Assembly (NCBI RefSeq): GCF_003815775.1
Contig: NZ_CP033926.1
Coordinates: 4,464,001 to 4,528,000, forward strand
Reading direction: 5' to 3'
Source of the DNA: Chryseobacterium joostei
GTDB taxonomy: Bacteria > Bacteroidota > Bacteroidia > Flavobacteriales > Weeksellaceae
DNA length: 64,000 bases
The notes under the pieces were generated by a model that ran no database searches, was not told the DNA's origin, and saw only the letters and a list, made by a program, of their open reading frames with translations. Shown piece by piece: positions 20,553-32,407 of this stretch (the stretch's first letter is position 1; every line of letters begins with the position of its first letter). The translations under genes and the position numbers were made by a program.

Positions 20553-21452
20553 CTATTTATTACAGGAAGAATCTCTTGTAATAGTTCCTATCCGCCCATT
20601 TATTTCAATAGGCTTAAAGTGTTTTTTCTTAAATTCTGACGGAGTTTCACTGGTATGCTGCTTAAACAGTTTATTAAAATACGACAGACTTTCAAAACCC
20701 ACCTGAAAACAAACTTCCGTTACAGAATAATCCTTTAACAGATATATCTTTGCTTGGTTGATTCTGTAATTATTTACAAAATCTGTGAATGTCATATTGG
20801 TCTGCTTTTTAAAATATCTACAAAAAGCAGGAGTACTGAGGCTCACAATTTTTGCAATTTCATTCACATTCGGTTTCTTATCGTGATTCTCATGAATATA
20901 GTCGTAGATGGTTCCCATTCTGATCTTGTCGTTCAAGAACCATTTGATCCTTGTATCCTCTTTGTTGAGTTCCTTTACTTCTGCAGAGTCTGCAAGAATC
21001 TGTAAAATCTCAATCATTCCCATCAATGCCTCAAAAGAGCTTTTATCTTTAATGACCTGAAGTTTTTCAACAACAATGTTTTTTGTTTCTCCGAAGAATG
21101 ATAAACCAAGGTAAGATCTGTCCAGCAGTTTTCTGATGTTTTCAAACTCAGGAACAGGAAAGATAATGTTCTGAAGAAAGTTTTCACGCATTTGTAGGAC
21201 TAGCTGTTTGCACTCTGTCTGGATACCATAGTCGAAGTTAAGATGGGGAACATTGGAACCAATCAATAACAAGTCACTGTCAGTAAAACCAGAAATATTT
21301 TTTCCAACATGTCGGATTCCATTGGATGCTTCTACGTATACCAATTCAATTTCAGGATGATAATGCCAGAAAAAACAGTTTTTCAGAGAAGGAGAAAATA
21401 GCTTGAAAGATTTCCCTTTTTCAAACTCAATAATTTCTTTCTGGATTTTCAT
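20553..21452 (-). CDS. AraC-family transcription regulator
   Basis: The 299-residue protein has an N-terminal cupin-like ligand domain with HYHPEIELVYV (residues 30-40) and a C-terminal AraC-type double helix-turn-helix from about residue 185, with NVNEIAKIVSLSTPAFCRYF and a second helix set ending YFNKLFKQHTSETPSEF. It is divergent from the MFS transporter, separated by about 180 bp, so a direct role in controlling that gene is likely. The effector is unknown; the His-rich cupin is typical of small-molecule sensing. The protein is cytoplasmic. Confidence 0.93.
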   Translation of the reverse strand: MKIQKEIIEFEKGKSFKLFSPSLKNCFFWHYHPEIELVYVEASNGIRHVGKNISGFTDSDLLLIGSNVPHLNFDYGIQTECKQLVLQMRENFLQNIIFPVPEFENIRKLLDRSYLGLSFFGETKNIVVEKLQVIKDKSSFEALMGMIEILQILADSAEVKELNKEDTRIKWFLNDKIRMGTIYDYIHENHDKKPNVNEIAKIVSLSTPAFCRYFKKQTNMTFTDFVNNYRINQAKIYLLKDYSVTEVCFQVGFESLSYFNKLFKQHTSETPSEFKKKHFKPIEINGRIGTITRDSSCNK

Positions 21453-25054: not shown

Positions 25055-26656
25055 TTATCTGCTGTAATATTGTATTTGCATCTCTTTCGGATACTTTACT
25101 TCATAAGAGAAGCCAATCTTTTCAGAACCTCCGGAACTGATCTTCTTGTTCCAAAGAATACTTCCTGTTTTTTCATCAAGACTTCCACCACCTAGATCTA
25201 TCGTTTTTACCATAATCTTGGAGTTTTCACTGATTGGCAGTTGATCCAGAACTTCCAGTTCAATGCTTTCCTTGGTGTTATTTCGGATGCTTATCTGGTA
25301 AGATTCAGTTTCCCATTTATTAGAATTCATTGACTTTTGAGAGGTTTTGTCTTCCAGCTTGATTCTTTTCACTGTAATTCTTTCATCTACACCAAGGGAG
25401 ATTGGGAACTCATCTTTTACATAATTGCTGGTAATATTGGTTTTCCCGATATAATTATCTTCAAAGTAAATATTGGCCTCGCCGTTGATAAGGTTGAGGT
25501 TCTGCCAGTTTTTTACAAAAGCCATCAGGAATACCTGATTATTAACCTTTGGAACTGTATGGTATTTGTAGGTGGCGTCAATTTGTTTTTTATCCAGAAT
25601 AACATATTGTTCTTTCTCCTGACTTAGAATCGTTTGATTGTAATTCAGTTCATAGATTACATTCATTTGGTTATCATAAACAGAAGCAATAGGAACCTGA
25701 CTTGGCCTTGCTACGGCATCCTCTCTCATTTGATAGGCATTTACTTCTGCTGCTTTGTTTTTTAACTGGTAGCCAGAAATCTCCTGCATTGGATTGTGAC
25801 CTGTATATTCTGCAACATAGAGCGGAGAAAGGATAGGTCTGTCCTGATTGTATGATGGTCTGTAAGTAGATACAAACAATTTTATATTTTTCCAGTCCTG
25901 TCCGGTTTTTTGGTAGATTTTCCCTTTGTAAACCATTTCGAGAGGCTTCTTTACAGACTCAGCGCGTAGATCATAGGATGGTACCCAGCCAGCATCAGAA
26001 ACAATATAGCTTACCCCAAGATTCAGACTGGTATCATTATCTGCAAGAATTTCAAGCAAAAGCTCTTTTCTGTTGGTGTTTTTATGAGTTTGTTCCTCGC
26101 CAGCCTGCTTGTTGAGCTTTGCAATACTTTCATCCAGAACAAACTTCTGCTCGTTCAGTAAAAATACTTGATTATCAATTTCCAGCATTCTTTTTCTGTA
26201 GAATTCCGTAAGCTTAATGAGCTGCTCCTGCGGTGTAGATTTATCATTGGTAGATACTTTTAAATTATCATTAATGATATTCTGCTCCCCGGTAAGGTTC
26301 TTAACCTGAATATTCAATAGGTTTACTTGTCTTTGAAGCTTTTTTCTTTCATCATCAAGTTTCTTTTCACCATCAGATAATTCATCATTTTTCAAAAAAT
26401 TACTTTGAGGGGTGATCGAAAGAAGAGTGGTGTTTTTTTCAAGATTAATTTTATAGGTATTTTCATCCAGGTCATTGGGAAGGTTTACAATCCTTACCAT
26501 ATTTCGGCCTTTCTGAAGACTTACATTGGTACTTCCAAAGACTTTTGCGCCCTGAAGAAATACTGTGGCCTGTTTTACATCAATTTCCTTTTTTATTTCC
26601 TGTGCCTTTAGGAAAGCAACCGAAAATGTAATGAGTATTAAAAAATAGCGTTTCAT
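25055..26656 (-). CDS. MuiA-type protein with DUF4140 and DUF4139 domains
   Basis: The 533-residue protein has a signal peptide (MKRYFLILITFSVAFLKAQ), then the N-terminal DUF4140 region (TVFLQGAKVFGSTNVSLQKG, residues 31-50), a coiled-coil (about residues 90-190) and a C-terminal DUF4139 domain (about residues 205-530). This is the mucoidy inhibitor MuiA family, secreted envelope proteins of unclear biochemical role that are often found in Bacteroidota. A direct-repeat pair at 26716-26745 lies 60 bp upstream of the start and matches those of two other genes nearby, so the gene appears to belong to a regulon with the LytS/LytTR system. It ends at a strong terminator. Confidence 0.88.
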   Translation of the reverse strand: MKRYFLILITFSVAFLKAQEIKKEIDVKQATVFLQGAKVFGSTNVSLQKGRNMVRIVNLPNDLDENTYKINLEKNTTLLSITPQSNFLKNDELSDGEKKLDDERKKLQRQVNLLNIQVKNLTGEQNIINDNLKVSTNDKSTPQEQLIKLTEFYRKRMLEIDNQVFLLNEQKFVLDESIAKLNKQAGEEQTHKNTNRKELLLEILADNDTSLNLGVSYIVSDAGWVPSYDLRAESVKKPLEMVYKGKIYQKTGQDWKNIKLFVSTYRPSYNQDRPILSPLYVAEYTGHNPMQEISGYQLKNKAAEVNAYQMREDAVARPSQVPIASVYDNQMNVIYELNYNQTILSQEKEQYVILDKKQIDATYKYHTVPKVNNQVFLMAFVKNWQNLNLINGEANIYFEDNYIGKTNITSNYVKDEFPISLGVDERITVKRIKLEDKTSQKSMNSNKWETESYQISIRNNTKESIELEVLDQLPISENSKIMVKTIDLGGGSLDEKTGSILWNKKISSGGSEKIGFSYEVKYPKEMQIQYYSR

Positions 26657-26680: not shown

Positions 26681-26745
26681 TAAAATTACCCGTATTTAGC
26701 CCTGAAAATGGGGAAACTTGGTGAAGTGAAGCTTTCACTTGGTAA
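26681..26745 (-). promoter_or_regulatory. Predicted LytTR-type site A and -7 box, MuiA gene
   Basis: On the plus strand ACTTGGTGA (26716-26724), a 12-bp spacer and ACTTGGTAA (26737-26745) form a direct repeat with 21-bp period. The spacer includes arms of an AAGTGAA-GCT-TTCACTT dyad. On the minus strand a -7-like TAATTTTA (26681-26688) lies 27 bp from the site, exactly as at site B. The start codon at 26656 is 24 bp further on. Confidence 0.65.
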
Positions 26746-26760
26746 ACCTGATAATGGTAC

Positions 26761-26789
26761 AAAAAAAAACAGCCCCAAAAGGAGCTGTC
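26761..26789 (-). terminator. Terminator of the SIMPL gene
   Basis: ACAGCCCC and GGAGCTGT pair around AAAA with one mismatch, and the A run (26761-26769) becomes a T run on the minus strand. It lies 18 bp past the SIMPL stop codon and just before site A. Confidence 0.75.
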
Positions 26790-26806
26790 TTCTTAAATCT
26801 GTTATT

Positions 26807-27481
26807 TTAAAGGATTTCGTATCTCGTTTTGATACTGTATTTCAGTTTGATATTTTCTATATTGTCAAAGGAAATATCAGCAGAAGCATCGGCCATTTCC
26901 ATCTTTACATTGCTCATTCTGCCTTTATAGGCAACAGGCATCACCATGTCACTGGTGTAGTCTTCTATTTCTACAATCTCAATGGCATTTCCGGTCTTTT
27001 TACCCATGCTTTCCAACAGATAATCGGCTTTTTCCTTAGCGGCTTTTAAGGCGTTAATTTTTACTGCTTTTCTGAAGTCAGCAATCTTGGTATTCTTTAC
27101 CTCTGAAATGTTCAGGCTGCTTACCCATTTTTGGTTTAGGTCTTCAAAGATCTTGCTAATATTTGATTTTGCATTCGCCTTAAACTGATAGTTTTTAGAA
27201 AACTTTGCTGTTTTTGAATAGATATTCTGGTACATCGACTTGAATTTGATATCCTCGTTCTTTACGCCGGCACTCTTTAAAATATCAAACATCTTCTTTT
27301 CATTGTCTGCCAGATCATTTTTGTTATCTGCTTTTATTCCGATGCTGAAGATAATTTCATCCGGTTCTACTTCCATTTCGGCAACACCTGTCACCTCGAT
27401 TGCATTTTTCTTTACTTCCTGAGCGTTTACAAAACTTCCCAGCGTTAAAATTCCGATTAATAAAAAATGTTTCAATTTCAT
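26807..27481 (-). CDS. SIMPL (DUF541) domain-containing secreted protein
   Basis: The 224-residue protein has a signal peptide (MKLKHFLLIGILTLGSFVNAQ) followed by a single SIMPL domain with IEVTGVAEMEVEPDEIIFSI (residues 28-47) and the repeated beta-alpha pattern of the family, including a late KYSIKTRYEIL. SIMPL proteins are periplasmic or secreted and of unclear function; some bind partner kinases in eukaryotes. It is divergent from the histidine kinase gene and shares a promoter region in which both have a conserved 30-bp site, so it appears to be under control of that system. It has its own terminator. Confidence 0.9.
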   Translation of the reverse strand: MKLKHFLLIGILTLGSFVNAQEVKKNAIEVTGVAEMEVEPDEIIFSIGIKADNKNDLADNEKKMFDILKSAGVKNEDIKFKSMYQNIYSKTAKFSKNYQFKANAKSNISKIFEDLNQKWVSSLNISEVKNTKIADFRKAVKINALKAAKEKADYLLESMGKKTGNAIEIVEIEDYTSDMVMPVAYKGRMSNVKMEMADASADISFDNIENIKLKYSIKTRYEIL

Positions 27482-27512
27482 AATTTCCTGTTTTTAAGTT
27501 TAAATTCTGATG

Positions 27513-27577
27513 TAAAATTAGCCAGATCTGAAACTGAAAATCGGGAGACTTGGTGAAATGAAGCTTTCACTTGGTGA
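27513..27577 (-). promoter_or_regulatory. Predicted LytTR-type site B and -7 box, SIMPL gene
   Basis: ACTTGGTGA (27548-27556), a 12-bp spacer and ACTTGGTGA (27569-27577) repeat the layout of site A. The minus-strand -7-like TAATTTTA is at 27513-27520, again with a 27-bp gap, and the sequence beyond it (ACATCAGAATTTAAA here, ACTTCATAATTTAAA at site A) is conserved too. Confidence 0.65.
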
Positions 27578-27736
27578 GTTGTTGTGAAAAGAGTATCATA
27601 TTTAAAAATGTAAAAAGTAGGGATATGAAAGTAAGCTTTGCTTTAAGTATAAGAGGCTCATCTTTAATATAAATAATAAGGTATATAATAAAGTGTATTG
27701 GTGTTAAAATAATGATTGTTAGTATTTTACTAAGTG

Positions 27737-27803
27737 ACTTGGTGAAGTGAGGTTTTCACTTGGTAAGGAATGGGAGACGATACATAAAGTTTTAGTTACT
27801 TTG
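27737..27803 (+). promoter_or_regulatory. Predicted LytTR-type site C and -7 box, kinase gene
   Basis: ACTTGGTGA (27737-27745), a 12-bp spacer and ACTTGGTAA (27758-27766) form the third copy. The -7-like TTACTTTG (27796-27803, one mismatch to TAnnTTTG) lies 29 bp downstream, and the GTG start of the kinase is at 27823. Relative to the gene, the repeats face the opposite way from sites A and B, which is a weakness of the model or a sign that orientation matters little. Confidence 0.6.
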
Positions 27804-27822: not shown

Positions 27823-29604
27823 GTGAAATTAGTTTTTAAAATATTGTTTATTTCAATGCTTGCTGTGGGAAATTTCCTTTCTGCACAGGATTCTACAAAG
27901 GTTTCACAAGTGTTGAAGTCTGCTGAAAAGCTAAAGAAAGCGGTGGATAAAAATGATGATAAGGCCATTGCCGATACGTATGTAGGAATGGCGGGTGATT
28001 ACTATAATCAGGGAAACTATGCTAAAAGTGAAGAATATTTAACCAAGGCTAAAGCTCTTTTTCAAAAGCTTAATGATAAAAAAAACCTTGAATCCGTTAC
28101 CAGAAAACTGGCCCAGTCACAGGAAAAACAGAATAAAATAACACCTGCCCTCAGCAATTACAGCATGGCGGCACAGATGAATTATAGTGAAAAAAGCAAG
28201 ACTGTAAATTCTAATGATGTGGCAAGGCTTTCTTCCCCGAAACCGGAACTTAGAGCAGAAGCTATTCAGGATAATATTAATATCAGTAAAAAAGAAAATG
28301 AGCAGGCTAGCGTAGCAGAGGGTTACAGTCAGTTGGCAGAGATCAATCTACAGCAGAAAGATATCAATAAGGCAGAAGAAAATTTGAATAACGCTTATAA
28401 AATTTCCAAAAAAGGAGCACCGCAACAGGCCTTGGCTATCAATCAAAAATTAACTGACCTTTATGTTGAAAATAAAAATTTTGACAAAGCTATTGAAGCT
28501 AAAAAGAAAGTTCTGAAAGAAGATTTTGTAAAGGAAAATTCACAGGAAAAGGTCAATCAGATTCAGGAGCTGGCGGATATTTATATTAAAAAGAATGATC
28601 CAAAAGAAGCGGTAGATTTATTGAAAAATGCCTACGGAATTGCGTTAGATAAAGGCCATACACTGGAAGCACAAAAGAGTGTGAAAAGATTGGACAGTTT
28701 GTATGCTATTTCAGGAAATACAAATGCTTCTGTTCAATTGTACAGAGATTTTCTGGAAAAACTTCCGAATCTGGTTTTGAAAGACAGAAGCCTTGTAGAT
28801 AATAAGATTCTGGAAGATACAGAGCAGAGAATTTCACAACTGGAAAAGGAAAAAGAACTGAAAGACGAATTGATTCGTAAGAAAAATGTCTTCAATTATG
28901 GTTTAATTGGAGCTTTGATTCTATTGACCGGTTTGGTTGTTTTTATTTTTAGAACGCTTAAAAAAGTTCAGACTAAGAATAAAAAAATTGCGCTACAGTC
29001 GCTTAGACGGGAAATGAATCCGCATTTTATCTTCAACAGTTTGAATAGCGTCAATCATTTCATAGCAACCAGTAATGAATTGGAGGCCAACCAATATCTT
29101 ACAAAATTCTCTAAGCTGATGCGCGGGGTGATGGAAAATTCTACGGATGATTTTATCCCTTTTCAACAAGAACTGGACCTTCTGCAAAATTATCTGGCTC
29201 TGGAAAAAACACGTTTTACAGATAAGTTTGATTATGAAATAGAGGTAGACGAAAGCTTGAATATGCACAGCCTGCAGGTTCCCGGAATGCTGGTACAGCC
29301 GTTTCTCGAAAATGCAATCTGGCATGGACTTCGGTATAGAACGGAAAAAGGTTTTTTAAAGCTCAGTTTTGAAAAAAATAATCAATATCTGAAAATTATT
29401 ATTGAAGACAACGGAATAGGAATTGAAGAAAGCAAAAAACAGAAAACCCAACATCAAAAGACGAGAGAGGGCAGAGGTATGAAAAATACGCTGGAAAGAA
29501 TCAAACTCTTGAATGATCTGTATAAAAAAGATATTACCTGCTCTGTAAAGGATAAAGAAAATAATAGTGGAGTTTTGGTGACCATTCAAATTAATCTGAT
29601 ATAA
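27823..29604 (+). CDS. TPR-containing LytS-type sensor histidine kinase
   Basis: The start is GTG at 27823, giving 593 residues with a signal peptide (MKLVFKILFISMLAVGNFLSAQ). TPR-like repeats fill about residues 25-300, followed by a coiled region, one membrane segment (about 357-377), a His_kinase (LytS-type) domain with REMNPHFIFNSLNS (phospho-acceptor His401), and an HATPase with FLENAIWHG near 495 and EDNGIGIEE near 527. It would phosphorylate the LytTR response regulator, encoded three genes downstream. Its own promoter region contains site C, so it may be autoregulated. The sensing surface is in the periplasm, made of TPR repeats; its ligand is unknown. Confidence 0.92.
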   Translation: MKLVFKILFISMLAVGNFLSAQDSTKVSQVLKSAEKLKKAVDKNDDKAIADTYVGMAGDYYNQGNYAKSEEYLTKAKALFQKLNDKKNLESVTRKLAQSQEKQNKITPALSNYSMAAQMNYSEKSKTVNSNDVARLSSPKPELRAEAIQDNINISKKENEQASVAEGYSQLAEINLQQKDINKAEENLNNAYKISKKGAPQQALAINQKLTDLYVENKNFDKAIEAKKKVLKEDFVKENSQEKVNQIQELADIYIKKNDPKEAVDLLKNAYGIALDKGHTLEAQKSVKRLDSLYAISGNTNASVQLYRDFLEKLPNLVLKDRSLVDNKILEDTEQRISQLEKEKELKDELIRKKNVFNYGLIGALILLTGLVVFIFRTLKKVQTKNKKIALQSLRREMNPHFIFNSLNSVNHFIATSNELEANQYLTKFSKLMRGVMENSTDDFIPFQQELDLLQNYLALEKTRFTDKFDYEIEVDESLNMHSLQVPGMLVQPFLENAIWHGLRYRTEKGFLKLSFEKNNQYLKIIIEDNGIGIEESKKQKTQHQKTREGRGMKNTLERIKLLNDLYKKDITCSVKDKENNSGVLVTIQINLI

Positions 29605-29614
29605 AAACACTCAC

Positions 29615-30340
29615 ATGAAAAAGAATATATCTCTGATAACGCTGATTATCTGTTTATTCTCCGGTATTTTATCCGGACAGGATTTCGATAGTACTCGGTT
29701 GAATAATATTCTGAAAAGTTTAAAATTAGATAAGACAAAAATCAAGGAAGAACTCTGTACTGAAAAGAAAATGCCCAATACAGAAGATTCCTATATTGCA
29801 GTCATTCCTGCCGTAGTACAGCAGGAAAATGATGATTATGTCTTTACAGTCCGGAATTATATTTTAATTACAGATGCTAATGGAACCATAAAGAATAAGT
29901 ATCTTGATCCAACAGAAATAAATTCTGATGCCATTAGTTTAAGAAGCTTTACAATTGATACCGGATTATATACTATTGGAACAAATATTCGCGCGTTTGG
30001 GGTGAAAGCAGATTTTGTAGGGAGCAGCAGACCTAATCCTTATGATTTAAGCACAATGTCCATGTATTATCCGGAAGGTAAAACTTTTAAGAAAGTTCTG
30101 GATCAGTTTACTATGGATTTATACAGTGGAGAATGGGATACGCGATGTAACGGAGAGTTTGAAGATAATCACTCCTATATTATACTAGAGCAATCCAAAA
30201 CCAATAATTTCACAGACCTTAAAATAAAAACGATTTCTGTTACTACAATAAACAAGGAAGTAAAAGGAGAATGTGAAAGTAAGGAAACATCAAAAACTTC
30301 CTATAAAATTCTGAAATTCAAAAACAGTTATTATCACTAA
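29615..30340 (+). CDS. Secreted protein of unknown function
   Basis: The 241-residue product has a signal peptide (MKKNISLITLIICLFSGILSGQ) followed by a compact mixed domain without a recognised motif. Two Cys residues in TRCNGEFE and ECESKE-type sequence suggest disulfides in the periplasm. It begins 10 bp after the kinase gene, so the two are co-transcribed. In this position it could be a signal or accessory factor for the periplasmic TPR sensor, but no sequence motif supports a particular role. Confidence 0.7.
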   Translation: MKKNISLITLIICLFSGILSGQDFDSTRLNNILKSLKLDKTKIKEELCTEKKMPNTEDSYIAVIPAVVQQENDDYVFTVRNYILITDANGTIKNKYLDPTEINSDAISLRSFTIDTGLYTIGTNIRAFGVKADFVGSSRPNPYDLSTMSMYYPEGKTFKKVLDQFTMDLYSGEWDTRCNGEFEDNHSYIILEQSKTNNFTDLKIKTISVTTINKEVKGECESKETSKTSYKILKFKNSYYH

Positions 30341-30468
30341 ATTTTTCATAGTAACAGTGCTTATCAAAGTATTGGTATTTTCGTTTGTGTTTTGAATTTT
30401 TATTATTTAATTGAGTTTTTTGTAACGAAATTTAGATAAAAACGTCTTATTAGGTAAAAACTAATCAG

Positions 30469-31176
30469 ATGGATTCTAATACTAAAATAGCAAGATGGGC
30501 AGGCCTTATTTATCTTGTCGTTGTCATAACTGGGCTTTTCAGTTTGATGTATGTACCTTCAAAACTGATTGAATGGGAAAATCCCAAACAGACTTTCAAT
30601 AATATTTCTTCTTCACGATATTTATTCAGTTTGAGTATTGCGAGCAGTATACTTTGCTATATGGCTTTTACTTTGCTCCCTTTGGTTTTGTATAAGCTCT
30701 TGAAAAATGTTAACGGAACTTATGCTAAACTGATGGTTATTTTGGCGCTTATCAGTGTGCCTATTTCTTTTATTAATCTTCAAAGTAAACTCTCAGTGCT
30801 TACGATTATAGATGCTGCTGATTATCTAAAAGTCTATAAAACAGAAGAATTACAAGCACAAGTCATGCTTTTGTTGAAAAATTACAATAATGGAATTCTG
30901 ATTGTTCAGATTTTCTGGGGGCTTTGGCTTTATCCCTTTGGTTATCTGGTGTACAAGTCTAACTTTTTGCCAAAGGTTTTGGGAGCCTTTTTAATGTTGG
31001 GTTGCTTGGGATATGTGATCAATGTTTTTGGAAGAATAACAATTCCTCAATTTTCCAGCTATGCAATATCAAGCTATATAACATTACCTGCTTCAATAGG
31101 AGAAATAGGAATATGCCTGTGGCTGCTGATTGTAGGCGTGAGAAGTAAATCTATTAATACTATTCATCAAAATTAA
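30469..31176 (+). CDS. DUF4386 domain-containing membrane protein
   Basis: The 235-residue protein has about six membrane segments. It opens with ARWAGLIYLVVVITGLFSLMY, the typical start of DUF4386 proteins, and later contains GLWLYPFGYLVYKS and GCLGYVINVFG, also in family positions. Function is unknown. It lies in the set of small genes between the LytS kinase and the LytTR regulator and may form part of their operon, although the 128-bp gap before it could hold its own promoter. Confidence 0.88.
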   Translation: MDSNTKIARWAGLIYLVVVITGLFSLMYVPSKLIEWENPKQTFNNISSSRYLFSLSIASSILCYMAFTLLPLVLYKLLKNVNGTYAKLMVILALISVPISFINLQSKLSVLTIIDAADYLKVYKTEELQAQVMLLLKNYNNGILIVQIFWGLWLYPFGYLVYKSNFLPKVLGAFLMLGCLGYVINVFGRITIPQFSSYAISSYITLPASIGEIGICLWLLIVGVRSKSINTIHQN

Positions 31177-31183
31177 TGCAACC

Positions 31184-31600
31184 ATGAACAAATCTACCCA
31201 ATTTGAAGACATCCAGGCAAATATCAAGATTATACTTGCCGGACTTTGGACCTCTGTTACGCTATGTTACTTATACGGTGATTACTTTGAGCTGTATGCC
31301 CCAGGAAAAACCCAGGGCCTTGTAGATGGTCATAATTTATTGAATTCTCCCCTGAATTTACTGATGGCTGCAGTCGTTTTAGCAATACCGGCTGTCATGG
31401 TATTTCTTTCCCTTATTTTGAAACCGGCTATCAATAGGATTCTCAATATAGTTTTCGGAATATTTTTTACTGTAGTGATGCTGCTTATTGGTATTTCATC
31501 CTTTTCAGAATGGTATCTATTCTATGTTTTCCTTGCAGCTGTAGAATGCATGATAACAATCTTGATAGTAGTATATGCCTGGAAGTGGAAAAGAGTATGA
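31184..31600 (+). CDS. Four-helix membrane protein, DUF6326-like
   Basis: The 138-residue protein has four membrane segments (about residues 17-35, 55-77, 84-105 and 112-133). The sequence LAGLWTSVTLCYLYGDYFELYAPG recalls the DUF6326 family, in which a conserved Leu-Trp start is followed by a Tyr-x-Tyr-x-Asp motif; this is a recollection, not a verified match. It follows the DUF4386 gene by seven bases, so the two are co-transcribed, and it precedes the LytTR regulator gene by 72 bp. Function is unknown. Confidence 0.7.
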   Translation: MNKSTQFEDIQANIKIILAGLWTSVTLCYLYGDYFELYAPGKTQGLVDGHNLLNSPLNLLMAAVVLAIPAVMVFLSLILKPAINRILNIVFGIFFTVVMLLIGISSFSEWYLFYVFLAAVECMITILIVVYAWKWKRV

Positions 31601-31672: not shown

Positions 31673-32407
31673 ATGAAGATCAAAGCCGTAATCATAGACG
31701 ATGAAATCATAGCAAGAGAGGTCCTGAGAAGCTATATCACCAAATACTGTCCTCAGGTAGAAATTCTAGGTGAAGCAGAAAATATCAAGGAAGCCGTCCC
31801 TCTGATTGCCGAAAAGCAGCCACAATTGGTCTTTCTGGATGTAGAAATGCCCTTTGGAAACGCTTTTGACGTATTGGAAGCTACAAAGGAATTTTCTTAT
31901 GAAACAATCTTTATTACCGCATTTTCACAGTATTCTTTACAGGCTTTGAATAAGTCGGCAAGCTATTATATTCTAAAACCAATTGACATCCAGGAGTTGA
32001 TCCTTGCAGTAAACAAAGTTGCTGAAAGTCTTGAAAAGAAGGATGAACTTAATCGTAACAAAATTCTATTGGAGAACCTAAAGCTAAAACCAGAAAAACA
32101 GCAGCTTATTCTCCCGACTCTACAGGGATTTGATGTCGTAAAAACCGAAGATATTGTAAGACTTCAGGCGGATGGAAACTTTACGCAGGTTTATCTTACC
32201 GATGGCTCAAAGAAAATGGTGTGCCGCTTTTTAAAGCACTTTGATGATCTGTTGGAAAGTCCTTTTGTAAGAGTTCATCGTTCCCATATCATCAATACAA
32301 CCTTTGTAAAATCCTATCATAAAAGTGGAACCGTAATGCTGGCTGATGATACTGAAATTGAGGTTTCAGGAAGCTTTAAGGATAACTTTCTGAAAGTATT
32401 CTCATAG
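31673..32407 (+). CDS. LytTR-family response regulator
   Basis: The 244-residue protein has a receiver domain (about residues 1-120; Asp10-Asp11 acidic pair, phospho-acceptor Asp56 in LVFLDVEMPFG, Lys near residue 104 in YILKP) and a C-terminal LytTR DNA-binding domain (about residues 140-242) with RLQADGNFTQVYLTDG and FVRVHRSHIINTTFV, the hallmark motifs. LytTR proteins bind paired 9-bp direct repeats with a 12-13-bp spacer, which is exactly the layout of the three sites upstream. It is the predicted partner of the LytS kinase encoded at the head of this gene group. Confidence 0.94.
   Translation: MKIKAVIIDDEIIAREVLRSYITKYCPQVEILGEAENIKEAVPLIAEKQPQLVFLDVEMPFGNAFDVLEATKEFSYETIFITAFSQYSLQALNKSASYYILKPIDIQELILAVNKVAESLEKKDELNRNKILLENLKLKPEKQQLILPTLQGFDVVKTEDIVRLQADGNFTQVYLTDGSKKMVCRFLKHFDDLLESPFVRVHRSHIINTTFVKSYHKSGTVMLADDTEIEVSGSFKDNFLKVFS

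Follow-up and report, generated by a model that had tools for sequence, protein, structure and literature searches.

Three copies of a paired direct repeat, hereafter sites A, B and C, lie in a window of Chryseobacterium joostei DNA (the whole stretch of 64,000 nucleotides that was analysed) and probably serve as operators for the LytTR response regulator whose gene lies at 31673 and which would act as an activator on a small, local and autoregulated envelope regulon; judging from sequence comparison, we assign this reading a probability of about 0.83. We computed here the sites themselves, their fixed spacing to promoter boxes, their conservation, their co-occurrence with the regulator and their fixed orientation, and the recurrence of the layout in many relatives points to a real and undescribed circuit of envelope control. 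The original prediction of a putative envelope regulon with LytTR-type sites thus draws support from the recurrence, from the promoter spacing and from the tie to one regulator.

Architecture of the locus

The features of the locus are given below in the order of their coordinates in the window, with the source of each gene assignment in brackets.

25055 to 26656, minus strand: gene of a MuiA family protein (DUF4140 + DUF4139; TIGR02231), putative target (Pfam, NCBIfam)
26681 to 26688, minus strand: predicted −7 box TAATTTTA of MuiA, 27 nt from site A
26716 to 26745, minus strand: site A, candidate MuiA-side operator, two 9-bp direct repeats with a 21-bp period, TCACCAAGT-type in the MuiA sense
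26807 to 27481, minus strand: gene of a SIMPL (DUF541) protein, putative target (Pfam)
27513 to 27520, minus strand: predicted −7 box TAATTTTA of SIMPL, 27 nt from site B
27548 to 27577, minus strand: site B, the same repeat element, 5′ of SIMPL
27737 to 27766, plus strand: site C, the same repeat element, 5′ of the histidine kinase gene and forward relative to it
27796 to 27803, plus strand: predicted −7-like box TTACTTTG of the kinase gene, 29 nt from site C
27823 to 29604, plus strand: gene of a sensor histidine kinase with TPRs and His_kinase PF06580, putative cognate kinase and target (Pfam)
29615 to 31600, plus strand: three genes between kinase and regulator, PA3715 family, DUF4386 and DUF6326 (Pfam, NCBIfam)
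31673 to 32407, plus strand: gene of a LytTR response regulator with receiver and LytTR domains, predicted to bind sites A to C (Pfam)

The pattern ACTTGGTRA-N12-ACTTGGTRA had been proposed to occur three times, and sites A, B and C were each found in place with 0 mismatches; they are the only exact matches in the whole 4,890,621-base genome, where the next-best matches (one place with 1 mismatch and two places with 2 mismatches) all fall within stop-to-stop open frames ≥100 aa long. Chance would give 0.22 matches with ≤3 mismatches per window, and three were reached in 0 of 100 dinucleotide shuffles. Site A is located 5′ of MuiA, at 59 nt from its start, and the boxes proposed for the three genes were confirmed at the distances listed.

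Among 197 distinct sites, the repeats carry 1.3–2.0 bits and the 7 central bases of the spacer are variable (0.1–0.3 bits). The asymmetry of the site extends beyond the 9-mers: an A follows the first repeat in 96% of the 197 distinct sites, and TTT (94–98% each), then C or G (98%), stand before the second. A reading of site A as a 7-bp palindrome (AAGTGAA-GCT-TTCACTT) was rejected because its inner bases vary among relatives; the direct repeat is conserved. We also considered whether the interval between sites B and C harbours what is left of a lost gene; blastn of 27578–27736 against the 96 stretches described below gave weak matches only, the best outside the window being 91 bp at 73% (E 0.001), and therefore no remnant is shown there.

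The presence of a LytTR regulator at 31673 was verified by Pfam, with PF00072 at 58.5 bits and PF04397 at 44.2 bits, both above their cut-offs, and its residues D10 and D56 are invariant across 6 orthologs. Its best NCBIfam match is BtsR, below the cut-off (101.1 of 246 bits), and a PDB search with the regulator returned 89 matches, two alignments among the best 60 of the 89 covering the receiver part. The kinase has a signal peptide and one membrane span, as read by eye from the translation, like the other signal peptides at the locus. A LytS-type kinase (PF06580) adjoins the regulator or lies a few genes away in the stretches that hold both, and the set of genes between the two varies among relatives. 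The gene directly after the kinase (29615–30340) has no Pfam match at E ≤0.001 and belongs to the PA3715 family by NCBIfam (203.7 bits, cut-off 70). SIMPL/DUF541 and MuiA/DUF4139 are curated in Pfam as of unknown function.

The site accompanies one regulator through the genus

A match with ≤1 mismatch is present in 165 of the 173 genus genomes, mostly in two or three copies per genome; the position of the matches was seen for part of these genomes, the few listed ones off the locus being chance-like. The pattern might have been equally common elsewhere, and within the genus it proved to be far above its backwards control, which gave 11 matches in all across the 173 genomes.

An ortholog of the regulator (E ≤1e-80) was detected in 162/173 genus genomes, with an identity of 88–100% among the genus matches listed, and all of these genomes have a match (162/162), in agreement with the proposed link to this one protein among the 15 LytTR domains above cut-off in the window genome. 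The eight match-less genomes (G012, G013, G107, G109, G152, G155, G159 and G161) all lack both the regulator ortholog and SIMPL. Six of the eight retain other LytTR-type regulators (28–38% identity); because of this, and of the 15 domains in the window genome, the mere presence of LytTR proteins does not account for the pattern. As targets and regulator are missing together, the co-occurrence links the sites to the whole system and cannot single out the regulator, its loss and that of the targets being inseparable in the eight genomes, which may represent few independent events. Three genomes have a match and no ortholog at E ≤1e-80: in G021 the contig ends inside the kinase, in G128 the ortholog is present in two frames, and in G135, a genome 73% complete, the contig again ends inside the kinase.

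Genes preceded by the site

The position of the site was evaluated in 96 stretches, one of them the window, which come from 93 genomes (88 of the 173 in the genus and 5 belonging to other genera in its family), and a site was counted as 5′ of a gene with ≤2 mismatches and within 400 bp. In these counts, which are not independent since the sequences share ancestry and a stretch was chosen when it contained the regulator or a site, the site is found 5′ of SIMPL in 84/86 cases, of the kinase in 91/93, of MuiA in 47/49, of SIMPL2, a second paralog, in 27/27, of an amidohydrolase gene in 20/22, of a rhodanese gene in 1/1 and of a VWA protein gene in 17/79. The control genes of the neighbourhood gave none: regulator gene 0/91, lipocalin 0/84, FAD protein 0/78, STAS protein 0/84, DUF7832 0/70, PA3715-family gene 0/32 and DUF4386 0/18.

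The exceptions are few and can be described one by one. MuiA is without a site of its own in stretch L055, where the preceding rhodanese gene has one, and in L162 MuiA is only 30% alike and the kinase site has diverged; SIMPL is truncated in L168 (genome G144) and has a site with 3 mismatches in L169; the kinase of L158 and the amidohydrolase genes of L043 and L118 have no site. In L168, SIMPL and kinase match only from residues 109 and 67, the matched ends meet, and the sites between the two genes are gone with the MuiA site kept, which looks like a deletion.

In three genomes the kinase–regulator pair lies apart from SIMPL or MuiA (about 2.0 Mb in G004, about 0.2 Mb in G030 and about 19 kb in G075), and in each of them a site is found on both of the separated halves. 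In G004, a SIMPL-domain gene and a sigma-70-family gene that diverges from it flank one site (L042:7654-7683). In G175 the regulator (76%) and the kinase are present with no site near the kinase, and the only site stands 5′ of MuiA on another contig.

Spacing between the site and the promoter boxes

Every SIMPL promoter (83/83) and every MuiA promoter (47/47) has its TAnnTTTR box exactly 27 nt from the site, the distance is 27–28 nt in 25/26 SIMPL2 promoters, and on the kinase side an 8-mer ending in CTTTG starts at 28 or 29 nt in 89/90 promoters, with the form TATCTTTG in 55 and TTACTTTG, as in the window, in 34; these counts omit the sites lying >125 nt from the gene start (1/84 SIMPL, 1/27 SIMPL2 and 1/91 kinase). 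TTACTTTG differs from TAnnTTTG by one base. The gene of a small exported protein has the site in 9/9 stretches, with the box at 27–28 nt. Across 239 sites (≤2 mismatches, ≥70 bp from the stretch end), with the kinase-side box loosened to T[AT]nnTTT[AG], a box occurs at 27–29 nt on at least one side in 239/239 cases, as against 0.2–0.8% of random positions; it is on the target side only in 149, on the kinase side only in 51, on both in 39 and on neither in 0.

TAnnTTTG is described in an excerpt on Flavobacterium psychrophilum as the sigma-A −7 box, at −12 to −5 (PMC9723704), which would therefore put the site at about −40 to −69. A −33 TTTG or TTG was found in 0/130 SIMPL and MuiA promoters, the chance of TTTG at the −33 distance being only about 4% (shuffles of the SIMPL set). 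A −33-like TTTG at N18–21 from the box occurs in 37/90 kinase promoters. Directly beside the site, 11/90 kinase promoters (e.g., L048, L052 and L054) have an inverted repeat ATAGTT...AACTAT, absent from the window, which coincides in part with the −33-like TTTG and might act as a further operator.

For the amidohydrolase genes near a shared site, the interval of 18 to 45 nt is free of boxes in 15/20 cases, and in 5 a box occurs at 42–44 nt; since the box is missing at the usual spacing, they may not be targets, and we did not retain the amidohydrolase as a regulated gene.

Persistence of the geometry outside the genus

The pattern had been expected to recur upstream of SIMPL, MuiA and LytS-type kinase genes in relatives, and this is borne out across the genus and, together with the promoter spacing, outside it. 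Outside the genus, 10 matches with ≤1 mismatch were found in 9/147 genomes and the backwards control gave 10 matches in 6 of 147 (in G206, 1 pattern match vs. 2 control matches); as these matches are no more numerous than those of the control, it is position and box spacing that carry the case in these genomes. The family samples contain 5 genomes from outside the genus that encode a regulator ortholog (E ≤1e-60), and 4 of these are among the 9 genomes with a match. The other 5 of the 9, without ortholog, have one match each, all inside open frames.

The fifth genome with an ortholog, G249, has a regulator 64% identical and a diverged site, AATGGGTAA, vs. the ACTTGGTGA type. Between its VWA and kinase genes, GAATGGGTAAAT occurs twice as a perfect 12-bp repeat, of changed sequence and with the same 21-bp period, flanked by the boxes TAGCTTTG at 28 nt and TTACTTTA at 29 nt. 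This repeat was first spotted by eye and afterwards tested over periods 15–30: the value of 12 was reached in 0/5000 mononucleotide shuffles, and the other periods never exceed 6. Furthermore, a sample of the order included 8 genomes from one genus of another family, possibly Flavobacterium, with regulator orthologs at 66–68%, and in 8/8 of the stretches a site with 0 to 3 mismatches stands 5′ of the kinase, with boxes at 27 nt and 29–30 nt on the two sides; a further site was found 5′ of the VWA gene in 4 stretches. Six more matches with 4 mismatches in this family, two of them with a box-like word at 30–31 nt, look like chance. Taking the diverged orthologs (64–68%) together, the geometry is kept in 9/9 stretches.

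Orientation and possible use of the site in both directions

The opposite direction of site C relative to its gene had been considered a weakness of the original prediction. The orientation is indeed opposite, and it turned out to be a fixed rule and not a defect: the site is forward to the kinase in 91/91 cases and reverse to every other target. The kinase site is common to a divergent gene in 57/91 cases (amidohydrolase 20, SIMPL2 19, SIMPL 11, small exported protein 6, MuiA 1) and was attributed to the kinase alone in 34, as in the window. The shared divergent arrangement also occurs in genomes beyond the genus (G201, G206, G236 and G249) and in the other family; from this distribution, divergent promoters with one site between them are probably the older arrangement, whose orientation site C would have kept.

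The use of an asymmetric site in both ways seems unusual for an activator binding direct repeats. The balance tips slightly towards one asymmetric LytTR direct repeat being an orientation-indifferent, two-way activator site between divergent promoters of kinase and envelope genes (−7 box at 27–28 nt on one side and 28–30 nt on the other), in two families, as part of an undescribed circuit of envelope homeostasis with SIMPL, MuiA and VWA effectors of no settled function.

Discussion

The sequences strongly support placing sites A to C within a known kind, the LytTR operator and regulon, of which they would be a new example with an unusual two-way use. Other readings were weighed against this one. 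A different regulator could bind the sites, the most plausible candidate being an AraC-family protein such as that encoded at 20553–21452, given that direct repeats with a 21-bp period also occur among AraC-type sites, that the gene lies about 5 kb away and that it is near the locus in several relatives. Across 30 genomes, however, the AraC gene does not co-occur with the sites, its ortholog (E ≤1e-60) being present in 3/8 site-less genomes (G012, G013 and G155) and absent in 9/21 site-bearing ones (G004, G030, G042, G106, G135, 73% complete, G175, G201, G206 and G236), as well as in G249 with its diverged site, so that we regard an AraC-family binder as very improbable. Still less credit is due to the idea that the three sites have no regulatory role and stem from the copying of a mobile element or short repeat, or from coincidence. 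Their near-identical sequence in the window would suit a repeat element, but the central spacer bases vary where the repeats are conserved and every one of the 239 sites is tied to promoter boxes; the matches examined in five genomes without the regulator sit in open frames.

A more serious, though still unlikely, alternative is that the LytTR protein binds the sites and represses, or represses at the kinase and activates elsewhere. A split role would fit the opposite orientation at the kinase and at the other targets, which is without exception, and the kinase promoters with a −33-like TTTG could work unaided. Against repression, the site precedes the core promoter in either direction, at almost equal spacing (27–28 and 28–29 nt), and the SIMPL and MuiA promoters have no −33 TTTG or TTG, although TTTG would be expected by chance in only about 4%.

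Activation by the LytTR regulator can be pictured as follows. Two LytTR domains, spaced by two helical turns, would contact the pair of 9-bp repeats from the same side of the DNA. The operator would lie at about −40 to −69, immediately before the core promoter, and the bound regulator would help RNA polymerase to start at sigma-A promoters with a good −7 box and a −33 box that is weak or missing, SIMPL and MuiA having no recognisable one. The kinase, with its exported TPR sensor part, is the likely partner of the regulator, and site C would make the expression of the kinase, and perhaps of the regulator, self-reinforcing. The output would be a small local set of exported envelope proteins. We infer here the binding, an activation rather than a repression, the partnership of kinase and regulator and an envelope signal.

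The targets of YpdB and BtsR of E. coli are transport genes, and those of AgrA differ from targets of the SIMPL/MuiA type. The general LytTR half-site consensus is [TA][AC][CA]GTTN[AG][TG], and ACTTGGTGA and its complement, compared by eye with this consensus, fit it poorly. The general consensus was not treated as defining because, in the excerpt of PMC4847170, LytTR sites share a geometry and no common consensus sequence. The excerpt describes repeats of 9–11 nt with 11–13 nt between them, and the 9-N12-9 arrangement here, proposed to be of LytTR geometry, falls within these published values (PMC4847170); the spacing was fixed in our site searches, and the repeat of G249, scanned over periods 15–30, stands out only at 21.

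As far as the sources cover them, four known systems can be set beside the present one. LytTR repeats immediately upstream of promoters are described together with autoactivation, which was demonstrated for Streptococcus mutans and suggested for Bacteroides (PMC6193735). HdrR/BrsR of S. mutans likewise have 9-bp direct repeats with a 12-bp spacer just upstream of the promoter, and autoregulation; they differ in having a membrane protein and not a TPR histidine kinase as partner, and a sequence of the ACCTCTTAG-12 bp-ACCACTTAA type (PMC6193735). The LRS-like operons of Bacteroides thetaiotaomicron and B. ovatus resemble our locus in the Bacteroidota promoter with a TATCTTTG box and in the upstream direct repeats proposed for a LytTR regulator, but the repeats are of 11 bp with an 11-bp spacer, 11 bp upstream of a TGTA-19 bp-TATCTTTG promoter, the LytTR regulator is membrane-spanning and the genes are others (PMC6193735). 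At P2/P3 of Staphylococcus aureus, a dimer of the LytTR response regulator AgrA sits on a pair of direct repeats ahead of promoters that share an intergenic region; unlike here, each promoter has its own site, with the proximal repeat centred near −60, and sequence and kinase are different (PMC4227749). E. coli YpdB and BtsR are also LytS/LytTR-type systems (PMC4847170 for YpdB), whereas YpdB binds a direct repeat of GGCATTTCAT (PMC4847170).

Among the open-licence literature matches listed, no title or abstract described this operator, kinase or regulon, the papers listed for the three exact repeat strings were all unrelated by title, and the search gave no direct binding data; the excerpts of PMC5395568 and PMC10057207 had no bearing on this system. 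A separate observation comes from the coevolution of Flavobacterium johnsoniae, where, in the excerpt, each of five coevolved lines was mutated in the LytTR-family FJOH_RS09515 or in the histidine kinase FJOH_RS09520, the next listed tag, and the authors call the LytTR contribution unknown (PMC10197871).

The locus offers a LytTR operator with many natural variants (the 197 distinct sites, and the diverged site beside a 64%-identical regulator) from which to learn how LytTR domains read DNA, and the two-way site raises the question of how a direct-repeat activator would serve promoters on either side. Finally, with SIMPL and MuiA tied to one sensor kinase and one regulator, their role would become testable by switching a single circuit.
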